From Candidatus Nitrosopumilus sp. (GTDB taxonomy: Archaea > Thermoproteota > Nitrososphaeria > Nitrososphaerales > Nitrosopumilaceae): a DNA stretch of 44,607 nucleotides. The position numbers and the translations under genes are program-made. The stretch is taken from the NCBI GenBank assembly GCA_028279625.1, contig JANQNM010000035.1, positions 1 through 44,607 on the forward strand, read 5' to 3'. This document shows, piece after piece, positions 17,631 through 26,454 of the stretch (the first letter of the stretch is position 1; every line of letters starts with the position of its first letter). The notes beneath the pieces are model-generated. The model did no database searches, was not told the origin of the DNA, and worked only from the letters and a program-made list of their open reading frames with translations.

Positions 17631-18167
17631 ATGAAAAGCGAGTTAATAGAAAATAGAATAATTGTTTGGAATATAGAAGATTCACGTAAGCTTTTCAGTC
17701 AAGGATATTATGGAAAACCAATTGGTATTCCTAAACCAAAAATAGAAGAGATAGACGTTCCATTAATTTTAGATCTAATTGAAGGATTGTATTTACTAGA
17801 AAATAAAAAAATAACTATTTCAAAATCAAAGCACAAAGTCACAGTAGAAGAGATGACAGATATTTGTAAAAAAGAATATCATGATTTTGATAAAAAATAT
17901 CTTGTTTACAAAAATTTTAGAGATAAAGGATACATAATTAATCCGGGAATAAAATTTGGGTGTGATTTTGCAGTTTATGAAAAAGGTCCAGGAATTGATC
18001 ATGCACCATATCTAATTCAAGTGTATAACAGAAACGAACCAATTACATCTACAGGAATTGTTCTTGCGGGACGACTTGCAACTACCGTAAGAAAACAATT
18101 CATTTTAGCAATTCCAAAAGGAAAAGACAAAGTAGATTTTCTTGCACTAGATTGGTGGAAGGCTTAA
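17631..18167 (+). CDS. endA: tRNA-splicing endonuclease
   Basis: The N-terminal domain is alpha/beta, and the catalytic domain holds YLVYKNFRDKGYIINPG, GCDFAVYEKGPGIDHAPY and LATTVRKQF, with the Tyr, His and Lys of the catalytic triad all present. It cuts introns from pre-tRNA at bulge-helix-bulge structures. At 178 residues it is the length of the homotetrameric type. It converges on the next gene with a 4-nt stop overlap. An intact triad means no separate structural subunit is required. Confidence 0.92.
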   Translation: MKSELIENRIIVWNIEDSRKLFSQGYYGKPIGIPKPKIEEIDVPLILDLIEGLYLLENKKITISKSKHKVTVEEMTDICKKEYHDFDKKYLVYKNFRDKGYIINPGIKFGCDFAVYEKGPGIDHAPYLIQVYNRNEPITSTGIVLAGRLATTVRKQFILAIPKGKDKVDFLALDWWKA

Positions 18168-18541
18168 ACCGATTTAATGTGACCAGCTATTTTATCATAA
18201 ATTTCAAAGAGTTCTTTGGTAATTCCAAAGGAAAGATGGTTATCCCATTTACTTCTAATTCTTACTGCACCTTCTGTGGGTTCAACATAGATGGTTGCAT
18301 CTTTTACTGATTGTTTTGCAATCATGTCATTGAGTTCAGAGTCTTCATTTAATTTAGAAGCGAGGCTGCCAGGGCCATTCCATTGTACCTTTTGAACTGT
18401 TTTTGAAGCAAAATGTCCTTTTGTTGTTAGTTTTGTTTTTGCAACATAGTTTCCAACATTTGCACCAACATCTTTTCTAACAATAAAGTGTGCTTGATAT
18501 CTGTCTAGTGCACCCCATGGAAGTGGATTTGGATCTTGCAT
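18164..18541 (-). CDS. Hypothetical protein, 125 aa
   Basis: Soluble, begins MQDPNPLPWGALDRYQAHF. Strand-rich in the middle (TKLTTKGHFASKTVQKVQW) with a helical C-terminus. I do not recognise a family. It begins 2 nt after the stop of the upstream gene, whose protein also begins MQD, so the two form an operon and may form a complex. Converges on endA. Confidence 0.65.
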   Translation of the reverse strand: MQDPNPLPWGALDRYQAHFIVRKDVGANVGNYVAKTKLTTKGHFASKTVQKVQWNGPGSLASKLNEDSELNDMIAKQSVKDATIYVEPTEGAVRIRSKWDNHLSFGITKELFEIYDKIAGHIKSV

Positions 18542-18543
18542 TT

Positions 18544-18780
18544 TTACCCCTTTTGAATAATCTGGATTGCATCTATGTTAGAGTTCTTGACATCAAGACA
18601 TCCTCTATTTGTTATCATTCTAGCTGTATGAGCAAAAATTCTACTATAGTAATCACCTTTTTCTAAATCATCAGTACCAATCTCTTTTGCTTCAGATTCT
18701 ATACCGATCTCTTTTAACATATCAGAAAACTTCTCCGGCCATGTTTGAAGGACAAATGTATCTGGCTCTGTATCTTGCAT
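18544..18780 (-). CDS. Hypothetical protein, about 78 aa
   Basis: The track starts at 18813, but that ATG lies inside a TATA-like TGTTTATTTG (near 18803-18812) which is about 27 nt upstream of a second in-frame ATG at 18780, giving MQDTEPDTF. I take the latter as a leaderless start; the downstream gene begins with a similar MQDPNP. The protein is acidic, helical near residues 20-45 and ends in DAIQIIQKG. No family recognised. Confidence 0.6.
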   Translation of the reverse strand: MQDTEPDTFVLQTWPEKFSDMLKEIGIESEAKEIGTDDLEKGDYYSRIFAHTARMITNRGCLDVKNSNIDAIQIIQKG

Positions 18781-18842
18781 TAAAAATCCTGAATCGTACC
18801 CACAAATAAACATTCAAGAATCATTTTGACAGAGATCAATCC

Positions 18843-18876: not shown

Positions 18877-20643
18877 ATGCTTAAATTCCAAAACAAAATC
18901 GCTTTAGTTACAGGAAGTGGCACAGGTATTGGTAAAGCCATTGCAACTAAGTTTATTGAAAATGGAGCTAGTGTGATTATTCTTGGAAGACGTGAAGGGC
19001 CATTAAAAGAAGCAGCAACAGAACTTGAAGGAAAAATCCCTCAAGGAACAAATGCGACAGTTCGAATTTTTGCAGGAGTTGATGTTGCTGATGAGACAGC
19101 AATGAATAACATGTTTGATGCACTAAAAAATGACAATATTACAGTTGATTACATAATTAACAATGCAGGAGTTTCAGGTCCTGTTACATGTTTTGCAAAC
19201 TCTCCATTAGATGAATTCAAAAGTACAATTGGAATTCACCTAACAGGAACGTTTTGGGGCTCAGTACAAGCTCTAAAAGTAATGAAAGAAGGTGGAAAAA
19301 TTATTACAATTTCAACATTCTTTACTGAAGAAAGACCTCTTGAGCAAAGACCTTACAGATTCAGAAGTCCATACACTGCATCACAAGGTGCAAAGAATAG
19401 ACTAGCTGAATGTATGTCATGGGAATTAACTGAGAAAAAAATAATTTCCATTGCAACAAATCCTGGTCCAGTACATTCTGATAGAATTTACAAGACAGTT
19501 TATCCAAAAGCAGCATCTGAATTTATGAGAGTTAGTGGATTTGAAGACTTGACTCCAGTCCAAGTTGAAGAAGCAAAAGACGATTTGTTAGAGTGTATTT
19601 TAGCAGACGGAATAGATAAAGAAGGAATTGCAAAGACTGCTGAAAAACTAGCAAATGGAAGAGACGTTGCAAAACTTACTGAAGTATATACTAGATTATT
19701 AGAACAAATTCAAAAACTTGCAGGAAAGATTCAAAACAATACATCTCATATGATTGCAGATCAAGAATTTCTAAAACAAGCTCAAGTTGCAGAATCTGTT
19801 CTTAATTTGTGTGATGATAAGATTGCTGAAATTCTAAATGGTAAAGTTATTCCTGGTGACAGAGTATTTTATCCAGTTAAACCACATATTGGAACTGCAA
19901 CACCTGGAGTTCATCAACAAGATTTTACAGGAAAAACAGTAGCCTTTACAGTGGATGCAACTGACAAAGCAGATGCAGAACGTGTAGAGGTATTGGCTTC
20001 CCATGTTGAGAAAAACGGAGGAAAAGTAGTATGTTTCATTTCACAATCAACTCCTACTGAACTTCAAGAATACATCAGTGGTAAATTCCACACACATTTT
20101 CTAGATCTTAAAAATCCTGAAGATGTACAAAGATGGCTTAATACTGCAAAAACCAAACTCGGCGATATTTTAGCAGTAGTTCACATTACAGGTAAACTTC
20201 CTGAAGTTGGAAACTTGACGGAATTGACAAGGGCAGGATGGGAAGAACTAATTGCCAAATTCATCACCACTCCTGCAACAGTAGCACAAAGAGCATTAGA
20301 ACATTTTGTACCAGGAGGAGACAAAGACCCTAGACTGTACAAAGATGCAACAGGCAGAATTATGATTATTGGTCCAGATTTGCCAATTGGTAGAAAAACA
20401 ACTGGAATACAAAGAGCTCAAGTTGAAGTATTCCGTGGAGCACTTAGACCATTTACAACTACAGTCAATCAAGAATTAAGCGATGTATTAAAATCAAAAG
20501 TGAGAATGTTTACTATTTTCCCAGGAACTGTAACAGGTGCAGAACCAAACAATGAAAAAATTGTTGATGCACTTAATTTCCTTGTATCAGATAGTGCAGT
20601 ATCATCAGCTGAAGTCACTTTCTGTGTTGACGAATCAAGATAA
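18877..20643 (+). CDS. Tandem short-chain dehydrogenase/reductase, two SDR units
   Basis: I start at ATG 18877 (MLKFQNKIALVTG, 588 aa) rather than the track's TTG. The first SDR unit has the cofactor loop VTGSGTGIGKAIATKF, IINNAGVSG, and the active-site region SPYTASQGAKNR, where the usual YxxxK reads YTASQ. A helical linker (residues about 220-340) precedes a second, degenerate SDR unit with no GxxxGxG. This SDR-linker-SDR order, with ISTFFTEERP before the Tyr and NPGPVHSDR after it, resembles as I remember it the C-terminal half of the Chloroflexus malonyl-CoA reductase. A reductase role in the hydroxypropionate branch is possible but unproven; a general acyl-CoA or ketoacyl reductase is the alternative. 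A hotdog gene follows after 2 nt. Confidence 0.8.
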   Translation: MLKFQNKIALVTGSGTGIGKAIATKFIENGASVIILGRREGPLKEAATELEGKIPQGTNATVRIFAGVDVADETAMNNMFDALKNDNITVDYIINNAGVSGPVTCFANSPLDEFKSTIGIHLTGTFWGSVQALKVMKEGGKIITISTFFTEERPLEQRPYRFRSPYTASQGAKNRLAECMSWELTEKKIISIATNPGPVHSDRIYKTVYPKAASEFMRVSGFEDLTPVQVEEAKDDLLECILADGIDKEGIAKTAEKLANGRDVAKLTEVYTRLLEQIQKLAGKIQNNTSHMIADQEFLKQAQVAESVLNLCDDKIAEILNGKVIPGDRVFYPVKPHIGTATPGVHQQDFTGKTVAFTVDATDKADAERVEVLASHVEKNGGKVVCFISQSTPTELQEYISGKFHTHFLDLKNPEDVQRWLNTAKTKLGDILAVVHITGKLPEVGNLTELTRAGWEELIAKFITTPATVAQRALEHFVPGGDKDPRLYKDATGRIMIIGPDLPIGRKTTGIQRAQVEVFRGALRPFTTTVNQELSDVLKSKVRMFTIFPGTVTGAEPNNEKIVDALNFLVSDSAVSSAEVTFCVDESR

Positions 20644-20645
20644 GA

Positions 20646-21095
20646 ATGAGAAAATTTAAAGAATTTCGCGTAGGAGACGCATTTTATTCTACATGCAGTA
20701 TCTCTGACAAAGAACTTGAAGAGTATCTTAATTTCTCAAGAGTTAGAAATGCATTCTTGGAAGAAAGAAAGAAAGGAGAATCAATTGTTTCAGGTCGAGC
20801 CATATTATCTAGAATGGAAGGAGAATTTACAAGATTAAATCAAATTTATGGAAATCATATTGTGTTTATTGGAACAGATGGTGATCCTGAGTGGGAAAAC
20901 AGAAACACACGATTTCTAAAACCAGTATCAGCAGATCAAGTCTTGAAATTAAAATTTACAATCTCAGGAAAAGAAGATGTAGATGATGAATTTGGAAAAA
21001 TTGCAGTAGACTTTGAAGGAACTGATCAAGATGGCGAAATAATTGTTATTTCAAAGAAAAATCTTTACAGAATTAAAAAAGAGCCACCACGTTAG
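20646..21095 (+). CDS. MaoC-like hotdog-fold protein
   Basis: The fold is indicated by VGDAFYSTCSISDKELEEY at the start, SIVSGRAILSRMEGEF (the region of the hotdog helix) and the strands NTRFLKPVSADQVLKLKF. The usual MaoC hydratase motif with Asp and His (GDxNPxH) is absent: the corresponding stretch reads NFSRVRNAFLEER. It may therefore be a thioesterase-like or binding protein, or a partner subunit. It starts 2 nt after the tandem SDR gene, so the two almost certainly act together on a CoA-bound substrate. Confidence 0.75.
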   Translation: MRKFKEFRVGDAFYSTCSISDKELEEYLNFSRVRNAFLEERKKGESIVSGRAILSRMEGEFTRLNQIYGNHIVFIGTDGDPEWENRNTRFLKPVSADQVLKLKFTISGKEDVDDEFGKIAVDFEGTDQDGEIIVISKKNLYRIKKEPPR

Positions 21096-24170: not shown

Positions 24171-24635
24171 ATGAAATCAAAAAATTCTAAGAGACTAGAT
24201 TCCATTAAAGCTGCACACCAATCAGAGAGAACTCGTTCTAGCACCAGAATGGAGGATTATTTAGAAATTATTTCAGAACTAGTTGAATTAAAAGGATATG
24301 CAACGACATTGGATATTTCAAGATACATGAACGTAAGTGCTCCAAGTGTTACAAAGATGCTGCAGAGATTAGATGAAAATGGATTTTTAGAATATGAAAA
24401 ATATCATGGAATTAATTTAACAGACAAGGGCGCTCAAGTTGCTGATGGAATTAGACAAAAACATGGAATACTGTTAGAATTTTTTGAAATTTTAGGAATT
24501 GGATATGACACTGCAAATCAAGATACCGAAGGAATAGAACACCATCTCAATCCAAAAACTATCAAACAATTAAGAAAATTTATCACTTTTCTAAAATCAA
24601 ATCCAAAGATTATTGAGAATTTTAAAAATCTTTAA
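24171..24635 (+). CDS. DtxR/MntR-family metal-dependent repressor
   Basis: A winged-helix domain (MEDYLEIISELVELKGYATTLDIS; SAPSVTKMLQRLDENGFLEYEKY) is followed by the dimerisation/metal domain with the pattern DTEGIEHHLNP, close to the Glu/His metal site of MntR. It has no C-terminal SH3-like domain, like MntR and unlike DtxR. It should repress metal-uptake genes when Mn or Fe is abundant. TATA-like AATTATACTA is about 30 nt before the ATG. The 3' end overlaps the PIN-ATPase gene on the other strand by 14 nt. Confidence 0.88.
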   Translation: MKSKNSKRLDSIKAAHQSERTRSSTRMEDYLEIISELVELKGYATTLDISRYMNVSAPSVTKMLQRLDENGFLEYEKYHGINLTDKGAQVADGIRQKHGILLEFFEILGIGYDTANQDTEGIEHHLNPKTIKQLRKFITFLKSNPKIIENFKNL

Positions 24636-26454
24636 GATATATTTGAATATCATTTTGTGAAGATGCAAGTTTCATCAAATTTCTTGCAACATCAGAACGT
24701 TTAGGAATTTTAATTTGGCCTTTCTTACCAATTCGAACAGAAGTTACATACTCGTCATGTACATAAACATCAGCATGCATTGAAGTATATTCTCTGCTTA
24801 CAGTTAGTAAAAGAGAAGTTTTTGATTCTGAAAAAGTAAATGGTAAATCATTAGTAATTCTAGAAGGATGTTCAGAATCTTTTTGAACTACATCAACATG
24901 AATTTTTAGAGCCTTTTCAATGTCGTTGATGTTTGAGCCTCCTTTTCCTATAATTGATGGAATATACTGCTCATTTACGAACACTTTGACTCTATTATCA
25001 GATAAAATTTCAACCTCTGCTTGAGGATCATATCTTTTGAAAGTATCTTTCACTTTATCTTCAGCTAGTTTTTCAATTCCTACTTTTTGAACTCGTTTTG
25101 CGACAGGAACAATGACATTTTCTTCTCCAAATGTATAGATTTCATGTTCAAGAACATTATCTGCAAAATTACGAATTTCAATTACAGGTCTTGCTAAATC
25201 AGATTCAGTCATGCCTGAGGGAACCTTAACTTTTAATTCCAAATCATAAACTTTGTCGATTCTTCCATCCTTTACAAATACAACAGTGTCTAACACATTA
25301 GGAATAATTCCTAGTTCGATTTTTCCAATAAAACGTTGAATTGCATCTAATGGAGAATTTGCATGAACAATTCCAACCATACCAACTCCAGTTAAGCGCA
25401 AATCAGCAAATGTTCTAAAGTCTTCCCTTCTTCTAACTTCATCAAAGATGGTGTAATCAGGACGTACAAGAAGTAAAATATCAGCAGTATTATCAAAACT
25501 TCCATCCAATTTACTATATTGAGTAATTCCAGGATCAACCTGCAAATCCCTTGGAGATTCAAATGTTTTTACAATTTTTCCTTTGTTATGATAAAAATTT
25601 GCAAGACCTGATGCAAGAGTACTTTTTCCAGAACCAGGGGCACCAGAAATAACTATTCCTTCTGCTCTATCAGAAAATCGTTTCATCAATTCTTCAGAAA
25701 TTTCATAATCATCAAGAGATAATTTTACAATTGGATGAACTATTGTTATCTCAAAAGATTCTGAAAATGGAGGATGAGTGATAGCTATTCGATAATCACC
25801 GTGTTGGATTACAGACGCACCTGTTTTTGAGATTTCAATAGTATTAGAGTCAGAAACATTTGCCACATCCAATATTTGAGATGTAATTAATTCCAAATAA
25901 TCTCTAGAAAGTATATCATCACTTAAGGTAGTTAATGAAAAAGTTCCAGGTTTTCCTTTTTTGCCCAAAGGCTTTTGGTTTTCTTTAAGATGTACACTCA
26001 TTGTTTCTGAATCAAAAAATTTCAAAAATTCTAATTTCTCATCTTTTGGGATGGATTTTAAAAATACTGTGTCTACTCCTTCAGCTTGTGCAACCAAGTG
26101 TTGGACATTATCAGAAGTGTAAAGAATAGCATTGTCTTGTTTTGCCATATCTGCAATAAGAGCATCAATTCTGCCGCTAGAAGCAAGTCTGATATCTTCG
26201 CTTGAAGGATGAGTACCCTTCAAAACGATCTCTATCCCATAACTTCCAGATAATTCCTTAAGTTTTCTAATTTTTTCGAGCCCTACAAAACCTTGTTCTT
26301 TTTTGGATGATGCTTGAGATTGTAATTCATCAAAAACAGCTTGAGGAATAATTATTTCAGAATTTCTAATAGAACCTGATTCAATTTGTTCTATTAATTG
26401 ACCATTAATTATCACACTAGTATCAGCCACAATTTTTGACAAAGTTTTATTCAA
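24622..26454 (-). CDS. PIN - VirB11/PilT-like ATPase - KH protein (PINc/VapC ATPase)
   Basis: Domains in order: a PIN nuclease-like domain (1-130; Asp11 in VADTSVII, DEL near 42-44, Asp97 in IDALIADM, Asp115 in TSDN), an ATPase with Walker A GAPGSGKST (271-279) and Walker B-like YTIFDEVRRRED (335-346), and a KH RNA-binding domain with IIGKGGSNI (501-509), then a basic tail. The architecture is widespread in archaea. The acidic PIN residues are in place, so it may cut RNA in an ATP-dependent way. It ends an operon with a receiver and an Hpt protein. Confidence 0.92.
   Translation of the reverse strand: MNKTLSKIVADTSVIINGQLIEQIESGSIRNSEIIIPQAVFDELQSQASSKKEQGFVGLEKIRKLKELSGSYGIEIVLKGTHPSSEDIRLASSGRIDALIADMAKQDNAILYTSDNVQHLVAQAEGVDTVFLKSIPKDEKLEFLKFFDSETMSVHLKENQKPLGKKGKPGTFSLTTLSDDILSRDYLELITSQILDVANVSDSNTIEISKTGASVIQHGDYRIAITHPPFSESFEITIVHPIVKLSLDDYEISEELMKRFSDRAEGIVISGAPGSGKSTLASGLANFYHNKGKIVKTFESPRDLQVDPGITQYSKLDGSFDNTADILLLVRPDYTIFDEVRRREDFRTFADLRLTGVGMVGIVHANSPLDAIQRFIGKIELGIIPNVLDTVVFVKDGRIDKVYDLELKVKVPSGMTESDLARPVIEIRNFADNVLEHEIYTFGEENVIVPVAKRVQKVGIEKLAEDKVKDTFKRYDPQAEVEILSDNRVKVFVNEQYIPSIIGKGGSNINDIEKALKIHVDVVQKDSEHPSRITNDLPFTFSESKTSLLLTVSREYTSMHADVYVHDEYVTSVRIGKKGQIKIPKRSDVARNLMKLASSQNDIQIYLKDF

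Follow-up and report, generated by a model that had tools for sequence, protein, structure and literature searches.

A tandem SDR protein conserved across AOA as a candidate malonyl-CoA reductase

Introduction

Few autotrophs on Earth are as abundant as ammonia-oxidizing archaea (AOA), and the first reduction of their CO2-fixation cycle is without a proven gene (PMC6038301, PMC12542715, PMC12894919), in agreement with the first-pass annotation of the DNA analysed here, which called the thaumarchaeal enzyme for this step not firmly settled. In 2018, malonyl-CoA reductase (MCR) figured among the unidentified enzymes of N. maritimus (PMC6038301), and a marker set of 2026 leaves the thaumarchaeal variant of the cycle without one (PMC12894919). 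According to the Nitrosocaldus genome paper of 2018, a search for the bifunctional Chloroflexus enzyme gave no homologue; SDRs of Nitrosocaldus cavascurensis with about 30% identity to Caur_2614 were noted there as candidates for the next step, malonic semialdehyde reduction (PMC5797428).

The window examined in this study, a stretch of 44,607 nucleotides from Candidatus Nitrosopumilus sp., encodes a tandem SDR protein, and the question that the locus raises is whether this protein carries out the first reduction. We consider the chances evenly balanced that it reduces malonyl-CoA (and/or succinyl-CoA) with NADPH in the archaeal 3-hydroxypropionate/4-hydroxybutyrate (HP/HB) cycle. If active, it would be an SDR that functions although both the canonical Lys and the canonical Asn are missing, and an enzyme family held in common would link the archaeal route to that of Chloroflexus. 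Our literature search, with supplements and the 2014 biochemical paper lying outside it, found no publication naming this gene as malonyl-CoA reductase.

Domain architecture of the tandem SDR protein

The gene for this MCR-like protein lies at 18877..20643 on the forward strand, as delimited by ORF analysis, orthologues and the Pfam family adh_short, and consists of a single open frame of 588 codons from an ATG at 18877 to the stop codon at 20641-20643. An in-frame TTG at 18826 would make the protein 17 aa longer; since alignment with the orthologues begins at the ATG, this start codon is favoured. Orthologues are present in hundreds of genomes, full-length, at 43-89% identity and with nearly all frames uninterrupted, the closest named relative retrieved being that of a Nitrosopumilus sp. 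(L072, 78% identity).

SDR-type (adh_short-type) families are the only Pfam matches of the 588-aa protein. Domain 1 (aa 1-224; 18877..19548, forward strand) is an NADP-type SDR according to Pfam and the orthologue alignment; it is of the classical kind (adh_short, E 1.1e-40, best match at residues 7-202), and its TGSGTGIG, GRR and NNAGVSGPV motifs are invariant or nearly so in 77 orthologues. With R38 and D69 conserved as well, it has the features of the NADP-binding catalytic SDR domain of the MCR C-terminal half (MCR-C). The stretch that follows (aa 225-345; 19549..19911, forward strand) is a predicted helical linker, placed by hhalign where MCR-C carries its extra domain and helical in both structure models, even the poor two-sequence one; profile comparison detected no independent homology between this linker and the extra domain. 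Domain 2 (aa 346-588; 19912..20640, forward strand) is a degenerate SDR in which the Gly-rich nucleotide motif is missing. Comparison of its family profile with one built from 62 ordinary SDRs gave an E-value of 2e-12 (0.24 for the reversed control), and phmmer matches the domain to 3edm (E 0.006).

The order SDR, helical linker, degenerate SDR, which the first-pass annotation had read from the letters, is thus borne out by the adh_short match, the predicted helices and the profile match of domain 2. It is also the order of SDR, helical insert and degenerate SDR in the C-terminal half of the MCRs of Chloroflexus, Roseiflexus and Porphyrobacter (PDB 8a30, 8hi5, 6k8s), from which the archaeal protein differs in being free-standing, without an N-terminal half, and in having a shorter linker. 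The N-terminal half (MCR-N), a malonic semialdehyde reductase, is without a helical insert aligned to the linker. A FabG-type protein would be a single domain of about 250 aa, as opposed to the 588 aa with a degenerate second SDR found here. The semialdehyde dehydrogenase fold PF02774 of the ASADH-type MCR from Sulfolobales, an enzyme of another fold and family that would fill the same step, is absent from the 588-aa protein according to Pfam.

Relationship to bacterial malonyl-CoA reductases

A kinship with the C-terminal half of the Chloroflexus-type MCR that exceeds general SDR similarity is supported by the family profile and by shared active-site features, at an identity of 19-22%. In the single-sequence phmmer comparison the FabG-type 3u5t reached a domain score of 64 bits and MCR-C one of 60 bits, and single-sequence similarity therefore does not discriminate MCR from an ordinary SDR; full-length MCRs lead the PDB list obtained with the query alone because the scores of their two halves add up. 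Using a profile of domain 1 from AOA, all eight MCR-C domains were ranked first (88-104 bits), followed by most MCR-N domains (63-73 bits), while the 62 comparison SDRs, which had been fetched with an MCR bait, mostly rank below the MCR domains. When a profile of the same kind was run against the entire PDB, MCR-C stood level with the best single SDR, and only two full-length MCRs and the tandem (3R)-hydroxyacyl-CoA dehydrogenase 2et6, each with two matching stretches, were placed higher. The comparison of the full-length profile with MCR-C gave an E-value of 2e-24 (hhalign).

In the FastTree phylogeny the AOA proteins are joined with MCR-N and MCR-C (SH 0.91), and the C-terminal half is closer to them than the N-terminal half, in line with the profile ranking. 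The clade of AOA and MCR sequences was also recovered by IQ-TREE from 44 taxa with all columns (UFBoot 78); its support was gone, and the AOA position no longer resolved, once the two active-site strips were removed. The kinship signal is therefore concentrated in the active site. This may reflect common descent at great distance or convergence, the second being less likely because the three-part architecture is shared. Linker and domain 2, compared with MCR, gave E-values of 3e-4 to 0.3, with no convincing specific homology, and these two parts alone do not prove MCR ancestry.

A structure search with the predicted model returned MCRs as the best 25 PDB matches; the alignment behind this model (pLDDT 67) contained MCR rows, and the matches are supportive at most. 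The model built without MCR rows, from the window protein and the Nitrosopumilus relative (L072), had a pLDDT of 39 and was left out of the fold comparison.

The first-pass annotation had proposed kinship with the malonyl-CoA-reducing half specifically, and the greater closeness of that half, the matching architecture and the presence of both YXXRXXY and an Arg after PGP support this. It had also named ordinary ketoacyl reductases as the closest hits that would speak against such a kinship; this is what the single-sequence search gave, but not the family profile, which places all the MCR C-terminal halves first, and the profile comparison that it had suggested came out in favour of MCR-C.

The FabG-type best match, the lead of 2et6 among the non-MCR entries found with the domain-1 profile and the hot-dog-like gene adjoining the SDR would suit a different enzyme, a 3-oxoacyl-CoA or (R)-3-hydroxyacyl-CoA type or other carbonyl reductase that is paired with the MaoC-like gene in Nitrosopumilaceae. 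We think this improbable, on account of the residues described below and of the lack of the hot-dog gene in other AOA families.

Active-site residues

The alignment equates S731, Y743, R746, Y749, R785, R616 and D651 of MCR with T147, Y160, R163, Y166, R203, R38 and D69, respectively, and each of these seven archaeal residues is invariant among the 77 orthologues. Most of them fall within an active-site strip at aa 147-170 (19315..19386, forward strand), which contains T147, Y160, R163 and Y166 as well as Q170. Y160, R163 and Y166 form the YXXRXXY motif, which is common to both halves of MCR (PMC10470521) and was found in 77/77 orthologues and in none of the 62 other SDRs, even though these had been fetched with an MCR bait; an equivalent of R163 by itself occurs in six of them. 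A second aligned strip, PGPVHSDRIYKTVYPK (aa 196-211; 19462..19509, forward strand), includes R203, the counterpart of Arg785 in MCR-C and Arg215 in MCR-N (PGPxxxxR), which is present in every orthologue and all MCRs and in 0/62 ordinary SDRs. T147 corresponds to S731 of MCR-C and to the catalytic T165 of MCR-N, being Thr as in the latter, and stands in the same Ser/Thr-before-Phe setting as in MCR-C (SSYF / STFF). The several local matches mentioned in the first-pass annotation are accordingly real and specific: YRFRSPY, which is the YXXRXXY of MCR, STFF and PGPVHSDR.

At two positions the family departs from MCR and from ordinary SDRs alike. Gln170 replaces the catalytic Lys753 of MCR in all 77 orthologues, where 61 of the 62 ordinary SDRs have Lys, and His121 (19237..19239, forward strand, by alignment) occupies the position of the canonical catalytic Asn, again in 77/77, where Asn is found in 54/62 ordinary SDRs and in 8/8 MCR-C domains. 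In place of the Asn-Ser-Tyr-Lys tetrad of the FabG type there is thus His121-Thr147-Tyr166-Gln170, and of the Ser-Tyr-Lys triad of MCR only T147 and Y166 are in position. Because of these family-wide replacements, which the first-pass annotation had overlooked, we regard the protein as an MCR-like variant and not as a member of MCR. Of the substitutions made in MCR, S731A, Y749A, K753A and R799A led to loss of activity and R746A and R785A lowered it, K753A abolishing the activity of the Roseiflexus enzyme (PMC10470521). Arg799 aligns to A212 (with K211 adjoining) and Arg1164 to D536, in an alignment that is uncertain here, and neither has a clear counterpart in the tandem SDR protein. Lys173, one helical turn beyond Q170, is invariant. 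A FabI-type Tyr-X6-Lys arrangement (Y166...K173) was considered and rejected, as the residue 26 positions from the PG turn, the canonical spacing for the Lys, is Q170 and not K173.

These residues bear on two of the alternatives. Ordinary SDRs, among them the carbonyl reductases considered above, keep the Lys and Asn that are lost here and lack R203 and YXXRXXY. The replacement of two of the four tetrad positions throughout the family, along with the degeneration of the second SDR, could also mean that the protein descends from an SDR but has lost catalysis and now serves in binding, structure or regulation. However, the NADPH-site and active-site strips are its most conserved part, and 91 of the 145 invariant or near-invariant residues fall in domain 1, including Y166, T147, R163 and R203. 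Such conservation of the remaining active site speaks against a decaying enzyme, and we judge an inactive protein very improbable.

For the malonyl-CoA reductase reading, the substrate, reaction, use of NADPH and role of domain 2 that we infer would be those of a CoA-acylating reduction, converting malonyl-CoA to malonic semialdehyde and possibly succinyl-CoA to succinic semialdehyde. Domain 1 would bind NADPH via the GRR motif and, as in MCR, the free carboxylate/CoA end would be held by Y160/R163 and R203. Hydride would then be passed to the thioester carbon, the tetrahedral thiohemiacetal would be steadied by T147/Y166, and CoA would leave, with the helical linker and the degenerate second SDR covering the active site. 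H121, Q170 and K173 may form a different proton relay; alternatively, the Lys may be dispensable, since thioester reduction would need no deprotonated Tyr.

Distribution across archaea

Among the 59 genera represented by 300 genomes of the order, 34 have the tandem SDR, and precisely these 34, spread over four families, have AmoA, as found by reading the two genus lists side by side. The protein is present in every AOA genus sampled, including AOA with genomes of 0.8 Mb, and the genome of the window itself (G000) carries archaeal AmoA. Elsewhere in the sampled phylum there was no tandem orthologue, with single-domain SDR matches only, and the viral contigs scanned contained no relative. This co-distribution is consistent with a role in autotrophy and is not proof of one, because AOA may be a single clade and one ancestral event could account for it. 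The same structural evidence would fit an MCR-like acyl-CoA reductase whose substrate is a different CoA thioester, outside the cycle, and the altered tetrad could mean altered chemistry, but the strict restriction to AOA and the retention in the smallest genomes leave us giving this hardly any credence. A single-protein candidate in every AOA genus sampled makes the malonyl-CoA reductase question directly answerable.

The 4-hydroxybutyryl-CoA dehydratase (HpaB) was rejected as a marker of autotrophy, as it also occurs in some non-AOA. Strong genes of this family were seen in three genomes (G033, G035, G032) from families that have neither AmoA nor the tandem SDR. Two HpaB genes, each on its own contig (C34, C11), are present in the window's genome, where closed genomes of the same genus have one; the extra copy is perhaps due to contamination or strain mixture (contamination 4.79).

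Other candidate reductases in AOA

Sulfolobales employ an ASADH paralogue as malonyl-CoA reductase. This precedent lends weight to the main rival explanation, in which a bifunctional Asd (joined by GabD where present) reduces malonyl-CoA and succinyl-CoA in AOA and the tandem SDR has some other AOA-conserved role. GabD and Asd, which belong to other protein families, are among the published candidates for the HP/HB reductions, and their protein levels track those of known cycle enzymes under carbon limitation (PMC12542715).

The genomic distribution of these families runs against this explanation. The aldehyde dehydrogenase family (Aldedh, PF00171), that of GabD, is absent from 16 of the 30 AOA genomes in one survey, closed ones included, and all 16 keep the SDR. 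Several AOA genera are without any Aldedh member; genomes lacking the family comprise all ten of one genus (g25), the single-contig G112, G182 and G196, of which the last two are closed, and two of 0.8 Mb. Each of these genomes carries the SDR and nearly every one AmoA, and HpaB was present in all those tested except two incomplete genomes. GabD is therefore not a general HP/HB enzyme. Each of the 18 AOA and 3 non-AOA genomes compared has two ASADH-type genes (PF02774), and without an AOA-specific copy Asd would need to be bifunctional. Matches to LuxC-type reductases were weak only and lay at the positions of Aldedh genes. We regard the Asd/GabD explanation as unlikely. A further-reaching form of the malonyl-CoA reductase reading, in which every AOA would use the tandem SDR, an MCR-C relative with a rebuilt His-Thr-Tyr-Gln site, to reduce both malonyl-CoA and succinyl-CoA, appears possible but doubtful.

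Genomic surroundings

A small MaoC/hot-dog-like protein is encoded 2 bp downstream of the SDR (20646..21095, forward strand; match to 1q6w, E 1e-3), with no Pfam family above its cut-off. The gene is strongly conserved in Nitrosopumilaceae, adjoining the SDR in most loci there, and was not found in families f2 and f3 or in most f8 genomes tested. An obligate operon of the two genes was rejected, as the pairing is not kept in other AOA families; the MaoC-like gene is a lineage-limited neighbour and not an obligate partner. Neighbour queries and ORF starts, which fall short of a full annotation, revealed no HP/HB genes beside the SDR orthologues of other families. Two Nitrososphaeraceae genomes (G031, G077) have matches to the MaoC/hot-dog-like gene that are interrupted by an in-frame stop.

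On the other side of the SDR, two small divergent genes at 18164-18541 and 18544-18813 (both reverse strand) match no Pfam or NCBIfam family. They are syntenic with the SDR and a tRNA-splicing endonuclease in most Nitrosopumilaceae loci and lie near the SDR in some f8 loci. Farther along the window, positions 24622-26454 (reverse strand) encode a 610-aa protein in which PIN nuclease and KH domains are combined with a type II/IV secretion-type ATPase.
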